Source: Aquimarina sp. RZ0 (GTDB taxonomy: Bacteria; Bacteroidota; Bacteroidia; Flavobacteriales; Flavobacteriaceae). From it: 64,000 bases of DNA. Numbering within the stretch: position 1 is the stretch's first letter; each line of letters starts with the position of its first letter. The stretch is from NCBI RefSeq assembly GCF_008370685.1, contig NZ_VTZU01000004.1, forward strand, positions 1-64,000. The letters run 5' to 3'. Shown one piece after another: positions 21,606 through 35,259 of the stretch. The translations under genes were made by a program, and so were the position numbers. The notes beneath the pieces are model-generated. The model was not told the DNA's origin. It saw only the letters and a program-made list of their open reading frames with translations, and searched no databases.

Positions 21606-22196
21606 TTAGTTTCTGGAAGGAAAAACTCCTTGCATGCATATTATGTAATATGTTCCAAGCCAGGGCTGCATATTATTTGTGGGTTGACTTCCTCCATTGA
21701 GGTTGACATTGACATTCCCCGATACAGGAGCGTTAAATGGTTTTAGTGTAGCATCTGCAGATTGATTACTATAGGTTTTTACTTCAGAACCATTTGTATC
21801 TTCAGAAGTTGCCAGAGAAGCGTTTGATGGATCCGGAATATCGGCAGCATCTGCCAATACAGGTATGGATACAGTGGCAACTGTACCAGGACTGATAGTT
21901 GCGATGTGATTATGAGCCGGCATTTGTAAAGTAGTTAATGTATTTGTTTCAGTTCCGCTTCGGGCTCCTTGTTTACGTGTTGATAAACCGGGGCCGGTTC
22001 CTGGTCCAATAGGTACGCGTCCTCTAAGATCTGGTAATGCAAACGAGGTTCTTCCATCACCTCCATAAGTTGTTCCTAGTAAAGAAAATAAAGCTTGATT
22101 TGAGTTTATTGATAATAATTGTCCTTCGCAAAACGCCCAGTTTCTTGGTGCAAAATTTCCTCCGAAAATTCGAATTTCTGCCATTGTTCCTTCCAT
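21606..22196 (-). CDS. Phage tail-collar domain protein (MdpB-like), copy 2
   Basis: This 196-residue protein has an N-terminal tail-collar domain: EIRIFGGNFAPRNWAFCEGQLL, LFSLLGTTYGGDGRTSFALPDLRGRVPIGPGTGPG, then a Ser/Asn/Thr-rich C-terminal part ending MQPWLGTYYIICMQGVFPSRN. Similar non-phage proteins are annotated as microcystin-dependent protein homologues. There is no signal peptide, and no phage structural genes lie nearby. It is a close paralogue of the next gene, 42 bases away, so this is a recent tandem duplication. Function is unknown. Confidence 0.88.
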   Translation of the reverse strand: MEGTMAEIRIFGGNFAPRNWAFCEGQLLSINSNQALFSLLGTTYGGDGRTSFALPDLRGRVPIGPGTGPGLSTRKQGARSGTETNTLTTLQMPAHNHIATISPGTVATVSIPVLADAADIPDPSNASLATSEDTNGSEVKTYSNQSADATLKPFNAPVSGNVNVNLNGGSQPTNNMQPWLGTYYIICMQGVFPSRN

Positions 22197-22238
22197 AATT
22201 GTATATTTTATAAATTATTAAATGATTGGTCTGATTTT

Positions 22239-22829
22239 CTAACTTCTAGATGGGAAAACACCTTGTAAACAAATTATATAGTATGTCCCCAGCCAGGGCT
22301 GCATATTATTTATAGGCTGACTTCCTCCATTGAGGTTGATATTGACATTTCCCGATACAGGAGCGGTAAATGGTTTTAAGGTAGCATCTGCCGTTTGGTT
22401 GCTATAGGTTTTTACTTCAGAACCATTTGTGTCCTCAGAAGTTGCCAGAGAAGCATTTGATGGATCTGGAATATCGGCAGCATCTGCCAGTACAGGAACG
22501 GATACATTGGCAACTGCACCAGGACTGATAGTTGCAAGGTGATTATGAGAGGGCATTTGTAAAACAGTTAGTGTATTGGTTTCGAGTCCGCTGCGTTGTC
22601 CAAGTTTGCGAGTCGATAAACCTGGTCCAGTTCCAGGTCCTACTGGCACACGCCCTCTTAGGTCAGGTAGTGCAAACGAGGTTCTCCCATCTCCCCCATA
22701 AGTAGTTCCTAAAATTGAAAATAATGCTGTGTTTTGTGAGATCGCCAATAATTGCCCTTCGCAAAATGCCCATGTTCTTGGCGCAAAATTACCGCCAAAC
22801 ATACGAACTTCTCCTATTGTTCCTTCCAT
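22239..22829 (-). CDS. Phage tail-collar domain protein (MdpB-like), copy 1
   Basis: It has the same length and architecture as its downstream twin (196 aa). Differences cluster in the first 30 residues and a few positions after the collar motif (for example TRKLGQRSGLE against TRKQGARSGTE). The collar block GGNFAPRTWAFCEGQLLAI and the C-terminal YYIICLQGVFPSRS are kept. It lies 59 bases downstream of the formyltransferase gene in the same direction. It lacks a signal peptide. Confidence 0.88.
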   Translation of the reverse strand: MEGTIGEVRMFGGNFAPRTWAFCEGQLLAISQNTALFSILGTTYGGDGRTSFALPDLRGRVPVGPGTGPGLSTRKLGQRSGLETNTLTVLQMPSHNHLATISPGAVANVSVPVLADAADIPDPSNASLATSEDTNGSEVKTYSNQTADATLKPFTAPVSGNVNINLNGGSQPINNMQPWLGTYYIICLQGVFPSRS

Positions 22830-22888: not shown

Positions 22889-23848
22889 TTAAGAAACAGT
22901 GTTGTAATTGCTTGTTAAACTTGTTGTGAAACAATGTCCTTGCCGTACTCCCAAATGAATATATTTGGTTCCTGTTAATACTCCAGCGTCAGAACTAATG
23001 ACATTGATCTTTAATAATTTTCCATATTTACAACACACAAACAGCCCTTCTTGTAGGTGTGCATGTACAATTTCTCCAGATGTCTTACCTAATAAAGGTT
23101 TTGTGTCTACAGGTGAAACTTCTACTATTTTTATAGGTGCTCCCTGATAGTAGGTAATTGCTCCTCCAAATTTAGGATTGCAAGCATTGACCAAACTCTC
23201 AATCTCATCAGAGGTTTGTGTTTCCCATTGTATTGTCAATGCTTTCTCATCGGGTCTGTTGTGATATGTTATATTGTTATTGGATTGTGGTTTTAAGTTG
23301 CTGGAATCTTGTATTAATGTTATTGCTTTTTGTGTTAACTGTCCTAATAGGTAACTCATTTTTGAGTTTAACATACCTAAGGTTTCTCCAGGGATGATAG
23401 GAACAGGTTGCTCAATTAATATTTTGCCAGTATCCCAATCTTCATCTATTTGATGTATGGTAATAGCCGTTTGTTTTTTTCTTTCTTTGATAGACCAAAA
23501 TACAGGAACAGCTCCTCTGTTTTCGGGTAATTTTCCGAAATGAATATTTAAAAAACCAAATGTTGGGATGTGTAAGATTTCCTTTGGGATTTTAATAGAG
23601 AAACCGCATACGAGTACTAAATCAGGGCGTTTGTTAATTAACCATGTTTTAAACTCGTTTTTGATATTTCGCTTGTTTATAACAAAGGTGTCAAAACCTT
23701 CTTTTTTGATGGATGTGATCCAAAAATTATCCTGTGGTTTTGTAATTTCAGATTCCTGAAAGCAAACAGAATCAAGCTGCTTTTCTTTTGAAACAGTATT
23801 GTATACAGAAAGGCAAATTGGAAAGCTTCCGATAAGTATTACTCTCAT
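22889..23848 (-). CDS. Formyltransferase-fold protein, Fmt-like
   Basis: The 319-residue protein belongs to the Fmt/ArnA formyltransferase family. The catalytic core is visible: FLNIHFGKLPENRGAVPVFWSI supplies Asn and His (classically N-x-H...LP..RG), and IDEDWDTGKIL supplies the Asp. The region from about residue 200 resembles the C-terminal OB-type domain of Fmt. It is unlikely to be the housekeeping Met-tRNA formyltransferase because it sits among exported-protein and collar genes and its N-terminal third is divergent. Such paralogues often formylate amino sugars or peptides; the acceptor here is unknown. Confidence 0.82.
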   Translation of the reverse strand: MRVILIGSFPICLSVYNTVSKEKQLDSVCFQESEITKPQDNFWITSIKKEGFDTFVINKRNIKNEFKTWLINKRPDLVLVCGFSIKIPKEILHIPTFGFLNIHFGKLPENRGAVPVFWSIKERKKQTAITIHQIDEDWDTGKILIEQPVPIIPGETLGMLNSKMSYLLGQLTQKAITLIQDSSNLKPQSNNNITYHNRPDEKALTIQWETQTSDEIESLVNACNPKFGGAITYYQGAPIKIVEVSPVDTKPLLGKTSGEIVHAHLQEGLFVCCKYGKLLKINVISSDAGVLTGTKYIHLGVRQGHCFTTSLTSNYNTVS

Positions 23849-24896: not shown

Positions 24897-25334
24897 TTAT
24901 TTTAGGTAAAGGCATTTTCGCTCATAATCAATAACTGCCTTTCCTTTTTTTAGGATATCTGCTCCTATGATACCATCTACAGGTTCTGCCTCATGTGCAA
25001 CCAATGCAGTATTTACGTGTGTAAGGTCGAATAATACTAATGAGATATTTTTTTTGGTCCACTTATCCAATTGTAGTATGTTTTTTTTAGAAAGTTGGGT
25101 GAACATATCGGTTGCTCCTGCTCCTGCTGCTTTAACATCACTGTCCTGAGCAAAAAGAGAGAATTTTTCTACAGCATCAAATCCTACACAGGAATTAGAA
25201 GCCCCGGTATCTACAATAAAGGTTCCTTTTATACCATTAAGTGCAGCTTTTACTTCAAAATGATTGGTCTTGGTATATGTAAGTGTAATACGGTGGTATT
25301 TTTTTTTGGTGAGTAGCTGTCGTAATGTAGTCAT
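24897..25334 (-). CDS. Retropepsin-like aspartic protease, single domain
   Basis: I place the start at the ATG at 25334 (145 aa, MTTLRQLLTKKK). The open frame continues 42 codons upstream but into the CHAT gene. The catalytic block FIVDTGASNSCVG matches the clan AA D-[TS]-G signature; PVDGIIGADILKKGKAVIDYERKCLYL is the matching C-terminal flap/psi-loop region. As one lobe, it should act as a dimer. There is no signal peptide. The start codon sits in an ATGA overlap with the stop of the TPR-CHAT gene, so the two putative proteases are translationally coupled. Confidence 0.87.
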   Translation of the reverse strand: MTTLRQLLTKKKYHRITLTYTKTNHFEVKAALNGIKGTFIVDTGASNSCVGFDAVEKFSLFAQDSDVKAAGAGATDMFTQLSKKNILQLDKWTKKNISLVLFDLTHVNTALVAHEAEPVDGIIGADILKKGKAVIDYERKCLYLK

Positions 25335-27934
25335 TTTCTTTTTTGTCTGATCACGAACAAAAATAGTACAATTAATAAGAAACTGCCTATAATAATACTC
25401 CAGATTGATTTGGGCTCTACAGAAGGGGTATATGCTCCATAATATACAAATGCAGCCCAATAATAGGGAGATTTTTGGATATTAGAAATGTTGGGGGAAT
25501 TAAGATACTCTAATTTAGCAGTATGTAATCCATATGTTTTTGAATTAGAAGAATAAAGGTTTTTATAAAAATATTGCATTAGCAGAGAGGTAGTTTTGTC
25601 ATTTACTTTCCATAATGAGAACAATACGTTTTGTACACCTGCATATTGAAAACCTCTTGCGATGCTTAATGGCCCTTCTCCTTTTGCTAATGCACCTATG
25701 CCAGTTTCACAGGCACTTAATACTATTAAATCTGCTTTTAATTGCAAACCATATAATTGATTGACCAGAATATCTTGATCTCTAAATTTTATAGAGGCAG
25801 GTCTCAAAAAACTACCTGCTTCAGCATGTGTAGAAAGATGCAAAATATGGTGTTTTTCTACTTCATTCATAAAATGGGCATAGGTTGCTTCTTTTTTTTC
25901 TAAGAATACTCCATTAAATTTTTCCTGTATTGAGTGCTTTTCTTCTAAAGAAAAAGGGAGTTCCAGAGTGGAATCTTCAAAAACAGGAAATACACCTAAT
26001 ACTTTTGAGTTATTGTTATTAATGTTTTTTGATCTTATATATTTACTTGCAGAAATTTCATAACTGACGATACTCGATTTTAACAAAAAAGCCATATTTT
26101 GGAAATTTAGAGAGCTATTTTTTTTAATCAACAATGTTTCAAAAGGAATAAAATTAAGAAGTCCGTCTGGAATAATTAGGAGATTCTTAGTGGTAGGAAT
26201 TTTTAAAGCATTGAATGTGTCAAAACTACTTTTCGAAAAACCAGTTATATCATTAATGATAATAGATGCTTTCTCAAAATAACCAATATAATTCAGAATT
26301 ACATTTCTAAAATTCTCAATATCATGTATCATATTAATTTCTATTGAATCAGAGGTGATATGAAATTGATAGACAGTTTCTTTTCCGAAAAAATATTCAA
26401 TTAATGTAAGATCATCTTGTTTTAGTTTTTTTTGTAATTTTTTAATTGTGATGTTTTCTTGTTTCAAAAGAAAACTGGGATACATACGCTTAAGTTTTTT
26501 AATCGTTTCTTTGAGTTCAATGGATTTGTTGCTATATAAAGAAGTCCATTTTTGAATTTGTGTAATATTGGCTTGATCTCCTTTTTGTTTTTCTTTTAGG
26601 ATATAAGTATCATATATAGCTAGTTCATTATGAAATTGATTTGTTTTTATTACTAATGAATCATTTTTATATTGTGATAGCAGCTGTTTTGAGACCAAGG
26701 CTTCGTTGACAAAAGGAGCTTTTGAATTTTCTGAGGCTATAAAAGCTTTTATGATATACTTTTTCTTTTTTGTGGTCTTATACATCGAATACAAAAGATC
26801 TATATAAGCTTCAGTACGATCTCTGTTTTGACTGTGTTGAATAATCTTAGTATTCTGTAAAGGGTATGCTATGTTTAATTTTGAGTTGACCTCAAAAGCG
26901 ATTTCATAGATATCTATAGCTAAAATTGGCTTGCCTAACTGTTGATAAATATATGCTTGAACATCCAGGGTTTTAAGTAATATTTTATCTGCAATAAGAG
27001 CTTCTTTTTCAGGAAAACCTCTTTTGGATGAGTATCTAGGAAGAAGAGAAGTGTAAATTTCTTTTATGTTACCCAATGCTTCTGTGTATGTTGATTTAGA
27101 AAGTAGAATGTCAATGTAGGCTAATTGTAATTTTGCAAGATCTCTTGCTGATGCGTCTGGGTTTTTAAGTAATTGAGATTTAGCTTTCAGAATATAGTTT
27201 TCCCCTTGTTGGATATCATTGTTTTCTAGTGCTATTGCTGCTAAAATTTGATACGCATTTACTTGGGTAGTATCTATTGAGATCACCTGTAGCGCATAAT
27301 CTTTTGCTTTTTTGATTTCTCCGGTATCTAAATAATTTGTTGCTAGATTAGTTAGTATATTGACGTTTTTCAATGCAATGGATTCTCCTTTTTTAAGGAT
27401 CTCAATTGCTTTTTGATACTTACTTTGATTGTGATACGTAATGGATAGATTGGTGATAGCAGAAATGACTTTGGAAGTGTTTTGTGATTGCTCTGAAAGA
27501 TATAGGTAACTGGTGATGGTGTTTTCTGCCTTCTGGAGATCACCTATTTTAATGTATAGATTACCAAGAGGTTGGAGACAGTTTTCAATAATGTCATACT
27601 CCTTGAACGTATTTTTATTAAATACTTTCCAAGCTTTTTCATAATACATGATTGCAGTAGGAATGTTACCAAATTGATTGTGATAATACCCCATATTGGT
27701 GTTAACAATACCCCAAGCTAAAATTTCTTCTTTGGTTAGAAGTCGATTTTCTTCAGAAGCTATTAATTTTCCTAGTCGATGTAATTTTTCTTTGGTTGGA
27801 TCTTTTAAAAAATAATCTAATTGATCATATAGAAATTTTGAAGCTTTTCTTTTTTGCTGCGCACAAAGTGATGGGTTTCCTTGATATATATAAAAGAAAA
27901 CTAAAAATACTATTTTAAAATTTCCAAATCCCAT
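25331..27934 (-). CDS. TPR-CHAT (caspase-like) protease, exported and C-terminally anchored
   Basis: I prefer the ATG at 27934 (867 aa), which gives a clean signal peptide ending near SLCAQQ; an upstream in-frame Met exists. Residues about 45-430 carry TPR-like helical pairs (YHNQFGNIPTAIMYYEKAWKVF, YHNQSKYQKAIEILKKGESIAL). The CHAT domain is C-terminal, with the catalytic His in HLSTHAEAG and Cys in LSACETGIGALAKGEGPLS. A final TM segment (WSIIIGSFLLIVLFLFVI) plus RQKRK predicts inner-membrane anchoring with the protease in the periplasm. It overlaps the upstream PKD gene by 20 bases and the downstream retropepsin gene by 4. Target and trigger are unknown. Confidence 0.9.
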   Translation of the reverse strand: MGFGNFKIVFLVFFYIYQGNPSLCAQQKRKASKFLYDQLDYFLKDPTKEKLHRLGKLIASEENRLLTKEEILAWGIVNTNMGYYHNQFGNIPTAIMYYEKAWKVFNKNTFKEYDIIENCLQPLGNLYIKIGDLQKAENTITSYLYLSEQSQNTSKVISAITNLSITYHNQSKYQKAIEILKKGESIALKNVNILTNLATNYLDTGEIKKAKDYALQVISIDTTQVNAYQILAAIALENNDIQQGENYILKAKSQLLKNPDASARDLAKLQLAYIDILLSKSTYTEALGNIKEIYTSLLPRYSSKRGFPEKEALIADKILLKTLDVQAYIYQQLGKPILAIDIYEIAFEVNSKLNIAYPLQNTKIIQHSQNRDRTEAYIDLLYSMYKTTKKKKYIIKAFIASENSKAPFVNEALVSKQLLSQYKNDSLVIKTNQFHNELAIYDTYILKEKQKGDQANITQIQKWTSLYSNKSIELKETIKKLKRMYPSFLLKQENITIKKLQKKLKQDDLTLIEYFFGKETVYQFHITSDSIEINMIHDIENFRNVILNYIGYFEKASIIINDITGFSKSSFDTFNALKIPTTKNLLIIPDGLLNFIPFETLLIKKNSSLNFQNMAFLLKSSIVSYEISASKYIRSKNINNNNSKVLGVFPVFEDSTLELPFSLEEKHSIQEKFNGVFLEKKEATYAHFMNEVEKHHILHLSTHAEAGSFLRPASIKFRDQDILVNQLYGLQLKADLIVLSACETGIGALAKGEGPLSIARGFQYAGVQNVLFSLWKVNDKTTSLLMQYFYKNLYSSNSKTYGLHTAKLEYLNSPNISNIQKSPYYWAAFVYYGAYTPSVEPKSIWSIIIGSFLLIVLFLFVIRQKRK

Positions 27935-29897
27935 AGAATTGAATTTGAGAATTTGGACGATTAAAATTATAAACATATCTAAAACCTAGACTTGGTCCAA
28001 TTCTAACTACGCCAATGTTCGTGCCAATAAAAATTCCAGTTTGCAGGTTTGTAAAACTATCATCTATTTCTCGAGAAACAAAAGAGTCTAAGTCTGGATT
28101 TCGTCTTTCTACACCATTTTGATCGATTAAGAAACCCTCACCAATGATCTCCTGATCATTTGTACTGCTTAGGTCTATTCTAAGTTGAACTCCTAGCCCC
28201 ATGGCAAAATAGTTATTAAAATTATGCCGGTATGAGGCGGGTACGGCAATTATAGAAATATTGTTAAACTGGTTTGTTTCTGAAAATCGTATAACGTCAT
28301 TTGTTCCGGTTGGATTAATAGTTCTGGTTTCAGAATTTATGAGTTCATCAAAAGAAGCAGCAGAAAATAATAATTCTGCCTGATAGTATCCTCGGTACGA
28401 TTTAAAAGGTGATAAGGTTGCTCCAACAAAGTATTCTTTTTGATTTTCTAATTCTGGAACTGTAATATACCCTGCTTTTGCGCCAATAGAAATCCCTGGT
28501 AAAAATCGAGTAGTAGCATAATTGGTAATAATAGGTTCATTTTTGTCAAAATAAATAGCAGTCTTGCTTTGGGTCTTTTTTTTATGAAATTTTTCACCGA
28601 ATTTCATAGAATATTTTACAAAACCTTTAGTAGAATCTATTGCCGAAACATTTTTTTGCTCACTTCCGGGAAGATAAATTTTATGAAACTGAAAGATGAT
28701 TTTATCCTTTTGTAGTATCGTATCCAGACAACTATAATTTATTTCTCTTTCCTTTGGACAGATTGGACATTCTGGATACATGGTATCGATTCTCAATGTA
28801 GATTTATCAAACATTTCTGGAGTATCTACTTCTAACTTAATCGTATTGGCTGGGCCTTCTCCATTATTTTGAAAACGAACTTTGAATTTTAATCGTTTGA
28901 ATCTGACCAAACGATAATTCATTAACCAGCCATTAGAAGACATTTTATTAGGATCATGAGAAGTTACAATTTCCATTTCAGTGTCTTTTACTGTATGATC
29001 ATCAAAATTAGTATCAGGAACATAAACACTTCTTAAGGTAACAATAGCACTGGTGTCTTTAATCATTTCGGGAGTCGTTTTTAGTGTCCTGAATATATTG
29101 CGTTCCTCACCTGGTTGCATGTTTTCAAACTCAATGATCTGATAGCTTCGGTATAGTGCTTTAGATTTTTCCAGTGTTAATGGAAAGTTTTTTCGTTTTG
29201 TGGTGTCTTGTACAAAAAGCTTTTTGTACTGTAAAAATGAGGTATTGTTAGATGCTAATAAGGTATGATCATCGTTCTTTGGTAATACTTGAGAAATAGC
29301 AGTTAGCGTAACAATGCGTTCACCATGATGTAATCGCGTATCTTCAATAATGAAGTTGTCATTTTTAAATTGCAGATCATTATAAAATAGATATAGCTTT
29401 CCGTTAGAAACATAATTATGATTATTCTTATAACTAGTGATAAATACCATTTCTTGATCAGGAATAGGTTCTCGGTTTCTTTTTAGAAGCAAATCTGTAC
29501 CTTCTGTAAAAAGAGAATTGTCTTCTATAGAGGTTTCATCATTTACATTGCTAATAGTTACAGATTTTGGCCTACTTGCAGGTGGTTTTCCATTGTCATA
29601 GTTGTTTGTAGCCCAAAGTTTTGTGTCAAATGTTCCATTCTTTTTGTAGTTGTGTTGCGGTTTTTCTTTAAAACTGTAATTGCCATCTCCAAATTCCCAA
29701 TAATAGGTATAAAAAGCTTTGGGAGCTCCGGCAATTTGATTGAGAGGAGGCATTTCTGCTTTATAGATTACTTGATTGCCTTGGATTTCATATGATATAG
29801 GTGCTATTCTTGGGGTGGTGTCATTAGTGAGTATTTGTCCGAAACATACTAATTGAAACAATATAATACTCGTAAATAAAGTAAAGAACCTCTTCAT
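27915..29897 (-). CDS. PKD-domain protein with C-terminal outer-membrane barrel
   Basis: The 660-residue protein has a signal peptide (cut near CFGQ), a PKD domain at about residues 50-115 (YYWEFGDGNYSFKEKPQHNYKKNGTFDTKL), a middle beta-rich region with a four-Cys cluster (YPECPICPKEREINYSC), and from about residue 465 a porin-like strand pattern (GISIGAKAGYITVP, YFAMGLGVQLRIDL, GPSLGFRYVYNF) ending in Phe, as barrel proteins do. Predicted location is the outer membrane with a periplasmic or surface PKD part. Its 3' end overlaps the CHAT gene, suggesting a joint role, perhaps sensing or presenting substrate. Confidence 0.8.
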   Translation of the reverse strand: MKRFFTLFTSIILFQLVCFGQILTNDTTPRIAPISYEIQGNQVIYKAEMPPLNQIAGAPKAFYTYYWEFGDGNYSFKEKPQHNYKKNGTFDTKLWATNNYDNGKPPASRPKSVTISNVNDETSIEDNSLFTEGTDLLLKRNREPIPDQEMVFITSYKNNHNYVSNGKLYLFYNDLQFKNDNFIIEDTRLHHGERIVTLTAISQVLPKNDDHTLLASNNTSFLQYKKLFVQDTTKRKNFPLTLEKSKALYRSYQIIEFENMQPGEERNIFRTLKTTPEMIKDTSAIVTLRSVYVPDTNFDDHTVKDTEMEIVTSHDPNKMSSNGWLMNYRLVRFKRLKFKVRFQNNGEGPANTIKLEVDTPEMFDKSTLRIDTMYPECPICPKEREINYSCLDTILQKDKIIFQFHKIYLPGSEQKNVSAIDSTKGFVKYSMKFGEKFHKKKTQSKTAIYFDKNEPIITNYATTRFLPGISIGAKAGYITVPELENQKEYFVGATLSPFKSYRGYYQAELLFSAASFDELINSETRTINPTGTNDVIRFSETNQFNNISIIAVPASYRHNFNNYFAMGLGVQLRIDLSSTNDQEIIGEGFLIDQNGVERRNPDLDSFVSREIDDSFTNLQTGIFIGTNIGVVRIGPSLGFRYVYNFNRPNSQIQFYGIWKF

Positions 29898-29941
29898 GAT
29901 TCGTTGTTAGTAGTTACTAAAGATAAGTAAAAGTTCATAGA

Positions 29942-29968
29942 ATTCCGGAAGGTAAATGCTTCCGGAAT
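29942..29968 (-). terminator. Hairpin after the serine hydrolase gene
   Basis: ATTCCGGAAG at 29942-29951 pairs perfectly with CTTCCGGAAT at 29959-29968 around a 7-base loop. The minus-strand T-tract is weak, the plus-strand one (CTTCTTTT) better. It separates the serine hydrolase gene from the PKD-CHAT-retropepsin group. Confidence 0.65.
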
Positions 29969-30014
29969 CTCTTCTTTTATGTATAGATGATTTGTGATCA
30001 ATAAATAGACGAGG

Positions 30015-31238
30015 TTATTCCCATGCATCATTATAGGCATTATAAATCATTTGGCGTAGGCTTGTAGTATTGTTTAAAGTAACATCCTGGCTATTCATTA
30101 CAATTACACAATCAATGCCATTTACGGGAAACATAACTATCTGATTGCGTACTCCTTGAGAAACGGCGGAGTCGTTACTAGAACCTATAGATCCACCTTT
30201 TCCATAATAATTTCCATGGATCTCGTCATTAGGGTCGGCAATATCCATTCCTAAACGATGTTCTTTCATAAGATTTCTTTGATCTTCTGTGACTAAAATT
30301 TCGCTATGCTCAAAAAAGGCATTTACTTTTGCCATTTCGATGACCGACATAAAATAACCTCCACCACCAGATTTGTTATTCCAACTAGTATAGAATGATC
30401 CGTTAGTGTTTGTGTTGATATCATTTTTGTTATAATAAAGCGTAGCATTGCTTTGGTCTTCTGGAACACAGCCAACCAGAGGTAATGCCAAACTATCAAA
30501 AATATTTTCCTGCATATATAACAAATACATGAATTGCGTATTTGCATCGTTCTCCAGATCAATGATATTTGTATTGTCTACAGCACTCCATAAAGATGGA
30601 ATAAGAATTCTAAATAATGCAAAGTTTACATTAAGATAGTTACGACTTTGTGAATTAATTACTCCTGTTTCGATACAATCTCTTAATCCTCGATATCCTA
30701 ATGTGGTGTCAAAATTATTGTTAGTGCTTTGTAGTCCAGACTCGTGTTTTAATAGGTCTTTAAAGCTAAGATCGGATATTCCAGGTCCTTTTGTCCATGA
30801 TGCTGGTAGCCAATCTTCAATTTTGTCTTCTATAGTAAGACTATTAGCTTCCAGTAATTGTATAGCAGCAATGGCAGTATAAAATTTGGTGATACTTGCT
30901 ACATTTATTTCTTTGTTTAGTGTAAAGTTAACTGCACCATCAATTGCCGTTCTAGCTTGTCCGTATGCATTAGATCTGGATAAATTTCCATTAACATTTA
31001 TGGTATATGCCCACCCAATAGGGGTGTCATTGCCTGCATTTACAGATGATATAATATTTTGTTCAAAAAGATCCATGTTAAAAACTGGAGCGTTCGTTTG
31101 TAGCTGATCAATATCATCTGTATTCTCACAACTTATGAATACGAGTATAGGTAAGATTAAAAATAAAAAGATATTTGTTTTTTGGATTACATCCCTACTT
31201 TTATTTGGTATTGTAACGGTTACATTGTTTGTAGTCAT
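30015..31238 (-). CDS. Class C beta-lactamase-like serine hydrolase lipoprotein
   Basis: The 407-residue protein has a long polar N-terminus before a hydrophobic stretch and lipobox (LVFISCEN, Cys about residue 37). The hydrolase domain has the S-x-x-K motif (Ser115-Lys118 in NVASITKFYTAI), a Tyr-x-Asn-like YLNVNFALF, and GKGGSIGSS in place of the usual KTG-type strand. Family members include peptidases, esterases and carboxypeptidases. Its promoter region shares two spaced blocks with that of the next lipoprotein gene upstream, so the two are probably co-regulated. Confidence 0.85.
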   Translation of the reverse strand: MTTNNVTVTIPNKSRDVIQKTNIFLFLILPILVFISCENTDDIDQLQTNAPVFNMDLFEQNIISSVNAGNDTPIGWAYTINVNGNLSRSNAYGQARTAIDGAVNFTLNKEINVASITKFYTAIAAIQLLEANSLTIEDKIEDWLPASWTKGPGISDLSFKDLLKHESGLQSTNNNFDTTLGYRGLRDCIETGVINSQSRNYLNVNFALFRILIPSLWSAVDNTNIIDLENDANTQFMYLLYMQENIFDSLALPLVGCVPEDQSNATLYYNKNDINTNTNGSFYTSWNNKSGGGGYFMSVIEMAKVNAFFEHSEILVTEDQRNLMKEHRLGMDIADPNDEIHGNYYGKGGSIGSSNDSAVSQGVRNQIVMFPVNGIDCVIVMNSQDVTLNNTTSLRQMIYNAYNDAWE

Positions 31239-31255
31239 GATTTATGTGTTTTTTA

Positions 31256-31295
31256 GTTTATACTATCATATCAATAGCATTGTCTTTTTGTTACC
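31256..31295 (-). promoter_or_regulatory. Putative alternative-sigma promoter, serine hydrolase gene
   Basis: Read on the minus strand: GGTAACAAAAA, 10 bases, TTGATAT, 7 bases, TAAAC, then the ATG 17 bases further. The identical blocks with identical spacings occur at 32565-32604 ahead of the other lipoprotein gene. The AAC-containing upstream block resembles ECF-type -35 elements. A sigma factor gene lies close by at 32651. Confidence 0.6.
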
Positions 31296-31390
31296 TCTAT
31301 TTGTGATTTTTTTTAAGAATTTTTTTTTAGCTAAAATGGTTGAACCTGGATTTTTTCATGTATAATCCGAGGTGAACTTTGATTAAATAA

Positions 31391-31419
31391 AAATTCCGGA
31401 AGTTTCACCTCCGGAATTT
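31391..31419 (-). terminator. Terminator after the 349-aa lipoprotein gene
   Basis: AAATTCCGGA at 31391-31400 pairs with TCCGGAATTT at 31410-31419 around a 9-base loop. On the minus strand the stem is followed by TTATTTAATC, completing a T-rich tail. Confidence 0.78.
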
Positions 31420-31478
31420 ATGCTGAAATCTGCTGTACCCCCCATTACTTAATTAGCATATTCCAGTGTGAGATTTAT

Positions 31479-32528
31479 TTACGGAAGATCATTAATTAAT
31501 GCAATCAATTCAGCCTCTGTTCCAGTAGTTGTAGTACCAATTACTTCTAAGTGATCTTCACCTATGGTTACACCTTGAATAGCATATACGTATTGACCAT
31601 CTTGTACGGATACAAAAATAAAATGTACTTCTAATCCAATTGGTATTAAGCCATAATGTTCAGAGAATAAACCAGTTTCTGGATTGTAAATGTCTAATAA
31701 TGCTAATGCTGTAGGTTCTCCATCATAAGAGATGTATACATTACTATTAGTATTGTCAAAACCTTCTGGGACATCTACATATACAATTGTTTTAGGGGCA
31801 TTATAATTATACCAACGATCTAAATTTGTCCATCCAAAATTACTAAGAAAACCTCCATATCCAGTAAGAATCTGTCCGTTAGGGCCTTCTCTTTCTCTTT
31901 GTTCTAAGACTCCTTGTTCGTCTTCTTCCCATACAATATCACATTGCATTTCATCTCCATCACAATCATTGTTTTGACCATTAAAAATTACCATATCTTC
32001 ATCAAATTCATCTACAGGAACAAAAATTTGAAAACCATTAGCAAGTTCTAATTGTTGACCGTTTTGAGTAGCATTTATAAAAAATTCTCCAGCAGACACT
32101 AGTGTTTCTACATCTCCATTAGGACGTTTCCCGTTGGTAGGCATTTTAGTCAGTACCATTTTTGACTTGTTGTAAATTTCAATTAATTCAATGGTAACAA
32201 GACCAGTAACAGTGTTGCCATTTTGATCTTTAAAGCTATCTGGAGAAAAGGTAAGTATGGTTCCTTCTGCGCCATACATTTCTCCAGTGCCTCCTGCATT
32301 TAGCATAAAAATCTGTAACGCTTCTTCACGGTTTTCGATAATCTCAGCTTCAAATTCTAATCCATCTAGGATTTGCTTAACAATAATATCGTTATCATCA
32401 TTTTTACTACAACTTGTTAGGAAAAAAATAGTTAACCCTAAAAGTAAAAAGCTTATCCTGTTCTGTTTTACATTCTTACTACTATTCAGTAATGTAAGTG
32501 TTTTGCTATTTGTTCTCATAGTATTCAA
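31479..32528 (-). CDS. Putative lipoprotein of unknown function
   Basis: The 349-residue protein has an unusual polar leader of about 25 residues before the hydrophobic stretch and lipobox (FFLTSCSKNDDND). The leader resembles that of the neighbouring serine hydrolase lipoprotein in length and composition. The body is beta-rich and acidic, with a Cys-containing acidic stretch (QNNDCDGDEMQCDIVW) that may bind metal. I recognise no domain. An alternative Met is at residue 4. It is divergent from the sigma factor gene at 32651 with 122 bases between. Confidence 0.7.
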   Translation of the reverse strand: MNTMRTNSKTLTLLNSSKNVKQNRISFLLLGLTIFFLTSCSKNDDNDIIVKQILDGLEFEAEIIENREEALQIFMLNAGGTGEMYGAEGTILTFSPDSFKDQNGNTVTGLVTIELIEIYNKSKMVLTKMPTNGKRPNGDVETLVSAGEFFINATQNGQQLELANGFQIFVPVDEFDEDMVIFNGQNNDCDGDEMQCDIVWEEDEQGVLEQREREGPNGQILTGYGGFLSNFGWTNLDRWYNYNAPKTIVYVDVPEGFDNTNSNVYISYDGEPTALALLDIYNPETGLFSEHYGLIPIGLEVHFIFVSVQDGQYVYAIQGVTIGEDHLEVIGTTTTGTEAELIALINDLP

Positions 32529-32564
32529 TTTTAAGTGTCCGTTATAGACTTTCTAAATTTTGTT

Positions 32565-32604
32565 GTTTACATCTTTATATCAACAACACTAGTTTTTTGT
32601 TACC
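32565..32604 (-). promoter_or_regulatory. Putative alternative-sigma promoter, 349-aa lipoprotein gene
   Basis: On the minus strand: GGTAACAAAAA, 10 bases, TTGATAT, 7 bases, TAAAC, about 36 bases before the ATG. Blocks and spacings match 31256-31295, while the intervening bases differ, as expected for conserved promoter elements rather than a recent copy. Confidence 0.6.
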
Positions 32605-32650
32605 TTTTTTCTTAAAACTTTTTTAATTTAGTTGTCCAGACCAATTATTT

Positions 32651-33238
32651 ATGGGAAAATCCAAAACGCATGCTGATCAGAAATATATTGAGGCGCTCTT
32701 GAATAATGATACAATAGTTCTTAAAGAAATATATGAAAAATTTGCTCCTAAAGTCGTGGGCTATATAAAGAAGAATAACGGTGATGAATCCAGAGCTCAG
32801 GACATTATACAAGAAACATTAATAGCCATATATAAGCTGGTAAAAGAAAAAGGATTATTGCTTACTTGTCCATTTGATGCATATTTTTTTTTATTGTGTA
32901 AACGCAAATGGCTGAATGAACTAAAAAAAGCCTCTTTAAAAGAGGTAACAATTAATGAAGAAGTTGTATCTATTAATGATGAGAGCATTCAACATGCTGA
33001 TGAGACTTTGATTTTTGAGGCTAGAAACGAGCTTTTTACTGAAGTGTTTGAGCAGTTAGGGAAGACATGTAAAGAATTGTTAAAAGCAATTTTTACGATA
33101 AAATCTATGGAAGCAGTAGCCTCAAAATTAGGGCAATCCTATGGATATGTACGTAAGAAGAAATCTTTATGTATTGGTCAACTGACAAAGATGATACAAA
33201 GTTCACCAAAGTATAATCGAATAAAAAATTTGTTATGA
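32651..33238 (+). CDS. Sigma-70 family (ECF-like) RNA polymerase sigma factor
   Basis: The 195-residue protein has a region 2 with EIYEKFAPKVVGYIKKNNGDESRAQDIIQETLIAIYKL and a region 4 helix-turn-helix (MEAVASKLGQSYGYVRKKKSLCIGQL). Length and the two-domain layout fit ECF sigma factors. Its stop overlaps the start of a membrane TPR gene by 4 bases (ATGA), the usual arrangement for a sigma factor and its regulator. It faces the lipoprotein genes whose promoters share a motif, making these its most likely targets, though this is inference. Confidence 0.88.
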   Translation: MGKSKTHADQKYIEALLNNDTIVLKEIYEKFAPKVVGYIKKNNGDESRAQDIIQETLIAIYKLVKEKGLLLTCPFDAYFFLLCKRKWLNELKKASLKEVTINEEVVSINDESIQHADETLIFEARNELFTEVFEQLGKTCKELLKAIFTIKSMEAVASKLGQSYGYVRKKKSLCIGQLTKMIQSSPKYNRIKNLL

Positions 33239-33972
33239 CCCCAGAAGAAAAATACGAGCTTTTTGAACGAAAAATAAATGGAGAACTTTCGGCTAAAGAA
33301 GAGGGCAGATTATTATTAATAATAAATAATGATAAGGCTATTGCTGATGAATTTAGAATATACAAAGAATGGAGTTCATATTTGGGTTCTAATCTTAATT
33401 TAATGCAAGAACAATCTGATTTAGAAAATAATCTAAAAGAAATTGGAAATGCGTTTTTTACACAAAAATCAGGTGAAAAAAAGGCAAAAATTATTAAAAT
33501 TCCATCTTGGGGCTATGCTGTTGCTGCAAGTATTGCAATTATTTTGGGAGTATATATTTTTACTAAGAGTAAGCCAACGTATAATGATTTTGTTTCTATA
33601 CCAGAATTATCAATCATAGAAAGAGGAGTTGAAAATGAAATTATAAATAATGCAGAAGAGGCTTTTAATTCAAAAAACTATGATAAGGCAGGGAAATACC
33701 TGTCAGAGTTATTGAAAAATGACGAGACAAATTCAGTATATCTTTTTTACTATGGTATTACACTTATAGAACAGAATAAAAGTAAAGAAGCATCCCAGAT
33801 TTTTGCAACACTGCAAAAGGGAAGTTCTGCTTATAAATATCGAGCAATTTGGTTTGAAGCGCTGAATCAATTGAAACAAGATAATAAAGATCAATGTATT
33901 GAGTTATTGAAGACGGTGCCAAAAGAAGCTGAAGATTACACACAAGCCCAAAAATTGCTTAAAAAACTATAA
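33235..33972 (+). CDS. Membrane TPR protein, candidate anti-sigma factor
   Basis: The 245-residue protein has a cytoplasmic N-terminal part of about 95 residues (MTPEEKYELFERKINGELS, resembling the start of anti-sigma proteins), one TM segment (WGYAVAASIAIILGVYIFT), and a periplasmic part with TPR-like helices (AEEAFNSKNYDKAGKYLSELL, YYGITLIEQNKSKEASQIFATL). Coupling to the sigma gene supports an anti-sigma role that senses the envelope. TPR partners in the same locus (the CHAT protein) could interact with it. The assignment rests on layout, not on a recognised anti-sigma domain. Confidence 0.75.
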   Translation: MTPEEKYELFERKINGELSAKEEGRLLLIINNDKAIADEFRIYKEWSSYLGSNLNLMQEQSDLENNLKEIGNAFFTQKSGEKKAKIIKIPSWGYAVAASIAIILGVYIFTKSKPTYNDFVSIPELSIIERGVENEIINNAEEAFNSKNYDKAGKYLSELLKNDETNSVYLFYYGITLIEQNKSKEASQIFATLQKGSSAYKYRAIWFEALNQLKQDNKDQCIELLKTVPKEAEDYTQAQKLLKKL

Positions 33973-34470: not shown

Positions 34471-35259
34471 ATGATACTTACCGATACACATACCCATATA
34501 TATAGTGAATCTTTTGCAGAAGATCAGGATACAATGATGCAAAGAGCAATGTCATCTGGAGTAGAACGTTTTTTTGTGCCAGCTATTGATTCTACACATA
34601 CAGAATCGATGTATGTGATAGAGAAAAAATATCCTGAGAATGTTTTTCTGATGATGGGGTTACATCCTACTCATGTTAAAGAGAATTATAAAAAGGAGCT
34701 ACAGCATGTAGAAGAAGAATTAGAAAAACGTTTGGGAGGTAATTCTGATCAGAAATTCTATGCGGTAGGAGAGATAGGGGTTGATTTATATTGGGATAAA
34801 ACTTTTTTAAAAGAACAGCAAGAAGCTTTTAGATATCAAATTAGACTAGCAAAGAAATATCAATTGCCAATAGTAATTCATTGTAGAGATGCATTCAATG
34901 AAGTTTTTGAAGTGCTAGAGTCAGAAAAAGGAGATGATTTGTTTGGGATATTTCATTGTTTTACTGGAACTAAAGGAGATGCTCAAAAAGCGATTGATTA
35001 TAATATGAAATTAGGGATTGGAGGTGTTGTTACTTTTAAAAATGGAAAGATAGATACTTTTTTACGAGAATTTTCATTAGATCATATTGTATTAGAAACA
35101 GACGCGCCGTATCTGGCACCTACTCCGTTTAGAGGAAAAAGAAACGAAAGCTCATACCTTATCAAGGTAGCTGAGAAACTATCCGATATATATGAAGTGC
35201 CTATAGAAGAAATTGCCAGAATCACTACAGAAAACTCTAAGACGATATTTGGAGTATAG
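34471..35259 (+). CDS. TatD family metal-dependent hydrolase
   Basis: The 262-residue amidohydrolase-fold protein has the TatD landmarks: LTDTHTHIY, GEIGVDLYWD, VIHCRDAF, IFHCFTGT and LETDAPYLAP, giving the metal-ligand His, Glu and Asp residues. TatD proteins act as cytoplasmic DNases or exonucleases in quality control. The name tatD is not certain among the family's several paralogues. An asparaginase gene follows by 58 bases on the same strand. Confidence 0.93.
   Translation: MILTDTHTHIYSESFAEDQDTMMQRAMSSGVERFFVPAIDSTHTESMYVIEKKYPENVFLMMGLHPTHVKENYKKELQHVEEELEKRLGGNSDQKFYAVGEIGVDLYWDKTFLKEQQEAFRYQIRLAKKYQLPIVIHCRDAFNEVFEVLESEKGDDLFGIFHCFTGTKGDAQKAIDYNMKLGIGGVVTFKNGKIDTFLREFSLDHIVLETDAPYLAPTPFRGKRNESSYLIKVAEKLSDIYEVPIEEIARITTENSKTIFGV

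Follow-up and report, generated by a model that had tools for sequence, protein, structure and literature searches.

A jointly inherited sigma factor, TPR and CHAT protease unit of flavobacteria as a candidate trans-envelope circuit

The first 64,000 nucleotides of contig NZ_VTZU01000004.1 of Aquimarina sp. RZ0 (hereafter the window) contain a locus encoding an extracytoplasmic function (ECF)-type sigma factor, a single-transmembrane (TM) tetratricopeptide repeat (TPR) protein, a lipoprotein that we call LP1, a PKD-domain protein predicted to end in an outer-membrane barrel, and a TPR-CHAT protease. These five genes form a unit that is inherited jointly in many flavobacteria and is apparently undescribed. 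On balance we lean towards reading it as a self-contained trans-envelope sigma circuit in which the CHAT protease would cleave the anti-sigma. A retropepsin gene that overlaps the CHAT gene, and that a preliminary description of the same sequence had coupled to it, lies outside the unit.

The composition of the unit emerges from 40 loci, 19 of the same genus and 21 of other genera, selected by a match to the PKD/DUF7849 protein. Genes for the sigma factor, the TPR protein and CHAT are each present in all 40 loci; LP1 is found in 38 and the retropepsin in 36. The same description counted two lipoproteins in the system. Both are indeed encoded in the window, but the second, a serine-hydrolase lipoprotein, is optional and occurs in only 3/40 loci. 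A larger set comes from a genome scan for relatives of the PKD protein, which gave 398 coding stretches; the best 80 were kept. There CHAT follows PKD in 75 loci, the remaining five lying on contigs of 3.2-7.2 kb. In 69 loci CHAT is present and the sequence reaches over 5 kb beyond PKD on its upstream side; 65 of these contain the sigma gene, 65 the TPR gene and 67 LP1. Within Aquimarina, the PKD protein finds a long match in 20 of 33 genomes; in one of these (G025, locus L056) the gene for it is split in two frames, with sigma, TPR, LP1, CHAT and retropepsin genes still there.

Presence and absence over whole genomes tie the sigma factor to the operon. Among 395 genomes of the order, 76 of them in the family of the window, which we take to be Flavobacteriaceae, DUF7849 exceeds its cut-off in 24, a count from which five weaker, sub-cut-off matches are excluded. 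A full-length orthologue of the sigma factor (E <= 1e-45) is found in the identical 24 genomes, and DUF7849 occurs in none of the 371 genomes without such a sigma. Of the 24 DUF7849 genomes, 23 have a strong LP1 match (>290 bits), as do three genomes without DUF7849; weaker LP1 homologues are more widespread. In two genomes without DUF7849, the C-terminal third of the sigma factor (model positions 130-194) is gone and the first 129 positions are fused in frame to the TPR protein; both fusions (L287:9005-9976 and L295:8862-9890) adjoin the retropepsin gene. In a further region LP1 stands alone between tatD and retropepsin (L296:702-2242), with no match to sigma, TPR, PKD or CHAT and no promoter motif in that region. 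We read the fusions and the lone LP1 as scars of loss, the sigma gene decaying once the operon goes. LP1-like lipoproteins also occur in regions L297-L303, two from the family of the window and five from outside it but within the order, small-genome lineages among them; the fetched regions have no sigma, TPR or CHAT match there. The agreement between sigma and DUF7849, together with the common motif before the operon described below, sustains the earlier idea of a single sigma-centred envelope system, from which the retropepsin has to be removed.

A promoter-like motif accompanies these loci. The window has two matches, upstream of LP1 and of the hydrolase gene, of the form GGTAACAAAAA...TTGATAT, for a shuffle mean of 0.05. 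In the 1.37 Mb of the 80 loci, the pattern GGTAACA.{14,16}[GT]ATAT has 133 sites, against 0-2 in five shuffles; it misses a GATCT variant present upstream of LP1 in some Aquimarina loci. The nearest downstream start is that of LP1 for 66 sites, of PKD for 12 and of other genes for 45 (at 12-189 bases); nine sites assigned to the TPR gene all lie inside the sigma coding sequence on the same strand and were set aside, and one site has no downstream start. When a wider range of spacings is allowed, the LP1 sites (n=64) have N16 in 57 cases and N15 in 7. The six-base box GGTAAC alone is found near the starts of LP1 (73/98), PKD (27/80), sigma (2/68), CHAT (1/75) and retropepsin (0/58). Many of the other motif-led genes are located in the interval from sigma to PKD and appear to encode exported proteins; of eight that were scanned, three have a type IX sorting domain. 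ECF -35 elements typically contain an AAC such as that in the first box. Of the sigma motifs described for Flavobacterium psychrophilum, the one of ECF type shows CGT at -10 and differs from the motif of the locus (PMC9723704).

Outside the locus the motif is scarce. A similar pattern has 16 matches in the Aquimarina sp. RZ0 genome, against 4 for a reversed control, and the GGTAACAAAAA...TTGATAT form is limited to the two sites of the locus; of the 14 matches elsewhere, two have the locus spacing (L188 and L200), the first of these falling within an open reading frame (ORF) of the opposite strand. The other CHAT regions of this genome contain one site, and 20 retropepsin regions contain two, neither near retropepsin. 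The pattern is absent from the fetched regions of all eight genomes that have an LP1 homologue and no sigma orthologue at E 1e-45, only three of which have close LP1 relatives. It is likewise absent from 40 CHAT regions of the phylum, so that any similar regulation of other CHAT-sigma pairs would involve different promoters. The motif set appears confined to its own locus, with further targets in this genome possible at L200 and the other 12 sites elsewhere, and we infer that the sigma factor reads GGTAACA-N16-[G/T]ATAT. Upstream of LP1 in a group comprising Flavivirga, Mariniflexile and Winogradskyella, the -35-like box forms part of an inverted repeat that varies slightly around AACAGGGTAA ... 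TTACCCTGTT (examples are L160, L161, L163-L165, L169, L172, L176-L178 and L186); this repeat is perhaps an operator or repressor site.

The catalytic residues of the protease, His703 and Cys742, are kept in 76/76 aligned CHATs. A C-terminal hydrophobic segment is found in 75/75, and the N-terminus of the window protein looks by eye like a signal peptide. CHAT is accordingly predicted from its sequence to be an exported, inner-membrane-anchored endopeptidase. The TIGR02937 match of the sigma factor spans residues 25-181. From its alignment, the TPR protein is predicted to have a cytoplasmic N-terminus and a periplasmic TPR part, and we take it, as its adjoining position suggests, for the probable anti-sigma; a Csm6_6H match to it stays below the cut-off. 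The retropepsin keeps its DTGAS motif in 57/57 homologues and matches Asp_protease_2 (PF13650) at 37.7 bits (cut-off 24.3) and PF00077 at 22.5 bits (cut-off 20.7). Profiles and motifs thus support the earlier assignments of an ECF-like sigma, a CHAT protein with intact His and Cys and a C-terminal anchor, and a single-lobe retropepsin. Searches with these sequences against solved structures gave CHAT matches confined to the TPR region, one weak sigma match and weak retropepsin matches.

LP1 has no Pfam family at E 0.05, and a lipobox-like motif is found by a loose pattern in 96/98 of its homologues. In its AlphaFold2 (AF2) model (pLDDT, the predicted local distance difference test, of 84), residues 60-238 align with the ZU5 domain of ankyrin (3ud2) at Z 10.2 over 128 residues and 3.0 Å. 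The best four GAIN domains follow at Z 8.1-8.7, UNC5b at Z 8.1 and one chain from the DPP9-CARD8 complex at Z 6.7; the same list holds two axonemal chains at Z 8.3-8.4. Plain Foldseek gave no convincing whole-model match (the best was 4jcl, with a TM-score of 0.19), and the ZU5/GAIN reading therefore rests on the second aligner; with that qualification, LP1 is predicted to be ZU5/GAIN-like. In the last strand of this domain, residues 228-232 form a nearly invariant FGW[T/S]N (T in 31, S in 12 and F in 1 of 44), with Gly rather than His two residues before the Thr/Ser position. Self-cleavage at this site is a guess. The LP1 stretches inspected contain no conserved CxH-type site of the kind named in PMC3482391. 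For the PKD protein the AF2 model is of moderate confidence (pLDDT 75, predicted TM-score 0.46), and for this reason only the barrel (468-660) and the PKD domain were used. The C-terminal barrel has 8 strands and resembles the designed barrel 6x9z (Z 16.2), OmpA (15.3), NspA (15.1) and OmpW (14.4), and a C-terminal Phe is present in 80/80 homologues. DUF7849 is hence predicted, on the model, to be an OmpA-like 8-stranded outer-membrane barrel.

Linkage of CHAT to sigma factors extends beyond this locus. The Aquimarina sp. RZ0 genome has eight CHAT genes, and homologues of the sigma and/or TPR genes lie near six of the seven others, in five of their six regions (L205-L210): both genes in L207, L209 and L210, sigma alone in L205, TPR alone in L206, which has two CHATs, and neither in L208. 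Regions L209 and L210 have a divergent layout like that of the window locus. Over the phylum, CHAT genes were found in 61 of 118 sampled genomes. From the 60 non-own genomes with a match, the best-scoring CHAT per genome was used to form 40 regions of 3.9-17 kb (39 top-scoring ones and the hand-picked G080), and 20 control regions were taken at hand-picked positions from 20 of those genomes. In these two illustrative samples, a sigma and/or TPR homologue lies within ~8 kb in 15 of the 40 CHAT regions (both in 7) and in 0 of the 20 controls; a looser E-value scale brings the CHAT regions with either gene to 19/40. One control region has a weak match to the CHAT model.

In the circuit that we favour, the single-TM TPR protein would hold the sigma factor, and the role of outer-membrane sensor or ligand would fall to the PKD protein with its OmpA-like barrel and to the ZU5/GAIN-like lipoprotein(s). 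The TPR-CHAT protein, exported and anchored in the inner membrane, would read the state of these outer-membrane parts, the presumed input of the circuit, and would cut the periplasmic part of the anti-sigma as a site-1 protease. The freed sigma would then transcribe mainly or only its own locus from GGTAACA-N16-[G/T]ATAT promoters, with positive feedback and strain-specific exported cargo as the outcome. That CHAT may be the activating protease is suggested by gene linkage, by topology and by the Csx29-Csx30-CASP-sigma precedent, in which the TPR-CHAT protease Csx29 cleaves Csx30, an inhibitor of an ECF-like sigma (PMC10028731). Several observations weigh against this circuit. The N-terminal hydrophobic segment of CHAT passes a crude cut-off (a 19-residue mean of 1.6) in only 39/75 proteins, so that export stays a prediction. 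The hydrophobic segment of the TPR protein was found, by a crude measure, in 61 of 67 homologues rather than in all; neither Pfam nor NCBIfam recognises an anti-sigma domain in this protein, and the sigma factor has no Sigma70_r4 (region 4) Pfam match at E 0.05. No full motif site in the 80 loci is assigned to the sigma start (0/133), hence the sigma factor itself does not look autoregulated, and its recognition of the motif is putative, as is the cleavage of a substrate by CHAT. Moreover, 25 of the 40 phylum CHAT regions have no sigma or TPR match within ~8 kb, and CHAT therefore need not work with a sigma factor. Lastly, these facts can also be accommodated if CHAT is an effector of the sigma factor rather than its activator.

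This last point is the main rival explanation, in which ordinary site-1/site-2 proteases would switch the sigma factor and CHAT would be a product that processes the lipoproteins, the barrel protein or the cargo; we regard it as possible, if doubtful. It agrees with the place of CHAT in an operon after the motif, with the exported look and type IX sorting domains of motif-led variable genes, and with the predicted fold of LP1, from a superfamily whose members are known to be proteolytically processed (PMC3482391). It agrees less well with the surroundings of other CHATs: sigma and TPR genes accompany CHATs whose regions lack LP1 and, among the 40 phylum regions, the motif, which makes the regulator a closer companion of CHAT than the cargo. 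A role in conflict or defence, the locus sensing envelope attack and CHAT triggering cell death or damage containment, would find precedents in the ECF-sigma/TPR/caspase neighbourhoods and ZU5 domains of predicted conflict systems (PMC8195603, PMC3482391) and would suit the variable genes between conserved flanks. We consider it improbable, given that sigma, TPR, LP1, hydrolase, PKD and CHAT have no PADLOC match at E 0.01 and that the locus keeps a stable chromosomal place beside tatD in 35/40 loci. In a bolder version of the favoured circuit, exported membrane-anchored TPR-CHATs would be site-1 proteases of a general kind, switching pairs of TPR anti-sigma and ECF sigma in Bacteroidota; in the locus they would be joined by an LP1 that possibly cleaves itself between the W and the [T/S] of FGW[T/S]N, so that caspase-fold and ZU5-fold parts, both known from death signalling in animals, form an envelope sensor. 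We think this version unlikely.

The coupling of CHAT with the retropepsin as a proteolysis pair under the sigma factor, as first proposed, is strongly contradicted by the data, and we find it hardly tenable. The two genes do overlap in the window, and they are adjacent in 57 of the 73 loci of the 80-locus set with enough downstream sequence, other genera included, and in 36 of the 40 loci of the smaller set, so that the adjacency is by no means limited to this strain. A single strong retropepsin match (E <= 1e-20) is found, however, in 78/395 genomes, namely 75 of the 76 of the family and three of a second family, whereas only 23 of the 76 family genomes carry the locus; 52 family genomes have the retropepsin without it. 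In all 13 tested genomes without adjacency (from 11 of 16 such loci in the 80-locus set and 2 of 4 in the 40-locus set) the retropepsin lies elsewhere in the genome, and it does likewise in the last two non-adjacent genomes of the 40-locus set (G170 and G283). Twenty retropepsin regions were fetched, L276-L292 among them, 18 coming from the 52 family genomes without the locus, and ORFs of >= 120 residues were counted as neighbours. In these 18, tatD is directly beside retropepsin in 15 and one gene away in 1, and 2 carry the sigma-TPR scar; where the locus is present, tatD lies beyond the TPR gene in 35/40 loci. From the placement of tatD with and without the locus it follows that the cassette lies between two core genes, tatD and retropepsin, and that the overlap with CHAT reflects position. 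The retropepsin, moreover, is intact where sigma and CHAT have been lost, and the GGTAAC box is missing upstream of it. It has no hydrophobic segment in 57/57 homologues and is thus predicted to be cytoplasmic; with no signal peptide in its alignment, it is predicted to reside in a different compartment from CHAT. The retropepsin is also the only protein of the locus with a PADLOC match (PDC-M08B, E 1.8e-10). For the reasons of distribution given above the coupling was rejected: the retropepsin is an ordinary core gene next door, into which the operon now extends.

Features of the locus and its flanks in the window
Feature	Coordinates	Strand	Basis
ECF-type sigma factor, 195 aa	32651..33238	+	TIGR02937 50.3 bits (cut-off 42.9); Sigma70_r2 28.1 bits (cut-off 24)
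Single-TM TPR protein, predicted anti-sigma	33235..33972	+	TPR_19; hydrophobic segment; overlap with sigma gene
Promoter-like site GGTAACA-N16-GATAT, upstream of LP1	32577..32604	-	same kind of site before LP1 elsewhere
Lipoprotein LP1, predicted ZU5/GAIN-like domain (residues 60-238) and Ig-like C-terminal domain	31479..32519	-	lipobox-like motif; AF2
Second promoter-like site, upstream of serine-hydrolase lipoprotein	31268..31295	-	pattern scan of window
Serine beta-lactamase/esterase-like lipoprotein, optional cargo	30015..31238	-	PF00144 49.3 bits
PKD + DUF7619 + DUF7849 protein, C-terminal barrel predicted	27915..29897	-	Pfam (PKD_4); AF2
TPR-CHAT protease, 867 aa, predicted exported, C-terminal TM anchor	25331..27934	-	PF12770 154.3 bits (cut-off 24)
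CHAT catalytic codons, His703 and Cys742	25826-25828 (His703); 25709-25711 (Cys742)	-	motif positions
Single-lobe retropepsin, core gene of the family, flanks cassette, outside unit	24897..25334	-	Asp_protease_2; genome counts
tatD-like gene, other flank of cassette, outside unit	34471..35259	+	beyond TPR/sigma in 35/40 loci

The gene list, coordinates and overlaps given earlier for the locus hold in an ORF check of the window, which confirmed the gene order. The sigma and TPR genes share the four bases ATGA, and this pair is divergent from the series LP1, hydrolase, PKD, CHAT and retropepsin. The PKD stop overlaps the CHAT gene, whose ATG is at 27934, by 20 bases, an alternative CHAT start (ATG at 27976) being likewise open, and the CHAT stop overlaps the retropepsin gene (ATG at 25334) by 4 bases. 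Further along the window, 21606-22829 and 22889-23848 are tandem genes of similar sequence, one of which was scanned and matches a phage tail collar domain (PF07484). They adjoin a gene that resembles a formyltransferase by eye, and collar-like genes are neighbours of the locus in 14 of the 19 loci from the same genus.

Several known systems have parts in common with the locus. The arrangement of an outer-membrane protein, an anti-sigma and an ECF sigma is that of FecI-FecR-FecA; a Pfam scan of nine proteins shows neither a FecR domain nor a TonB-dependent receptor, and the locus differs in that its barrel is predicted to be 8-stranded. In the sigmaE-RseA-DegS system of E. coli, DegS is an S1 PDZ protease, and CHAT proteins belong to clan CD. 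That system resembles the proposed circuit in its membrane anti-sigma, its inner-membrane-anchored periplasmic protease and its envelope signal (PMC10028731); it differs in that the protease of the locus would be a CHAT protein and the motif set appears limited to the locus itself. CASP/Craspase likewise ties a TPR-CHAT protein genetically to an ECF-like sigma and a sigma inhibitor, with matches to the sigma motif within the locus (PMC10028731). There, Csx29 is RNA-activated with Cas7-11, whereas the CHAT protein described here is predicted to be exported and TM-anchored and is accompanied by a barrel protein and a lipoprotein; no Cas family exceeds its cut-off among the nine proteins scanned. 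EACC2 systems also have a caspase-fold protease beside an ECF sigma and a TPR (DUF1822) gene (PMC8195603). They differ from the locus, whose Pfam matches include no family of those names and whose CHAT protein is predicted to be envelope-anchored. ZU5 domains of bacterial surface proteins (PMC3482391) would be comparable to LP1, an exported protein with a predicted ZU5/GAIN fold, and differ in that LP1 has no Pfam match. Protease-controlled sigma/anti-sigma systems, the CHAT-sigma linkage of CASP and caspase-ECF-TPR neighbourhoods (PMC8195603) are thus already known. As far as the accessible open-access literature goes, we found no report that combines an exported CHAT protein, its own sigma factor, an OmpA-like PKD protein and a ZU5/GAIN-like lipoprotein.

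To our knowledge, most CHAT genes of the phylum have no assigned role. The tempting pairing of CHAT with the retropepsin gives way here to a family-wide core gene beside a separate unit. With its own sigma factor, its own promoter-like motif, scars of loss and two kept catalytic residues, this unit offers a testable link between a caspase-fold protease and an envelope sigma factor outside CRISPR.

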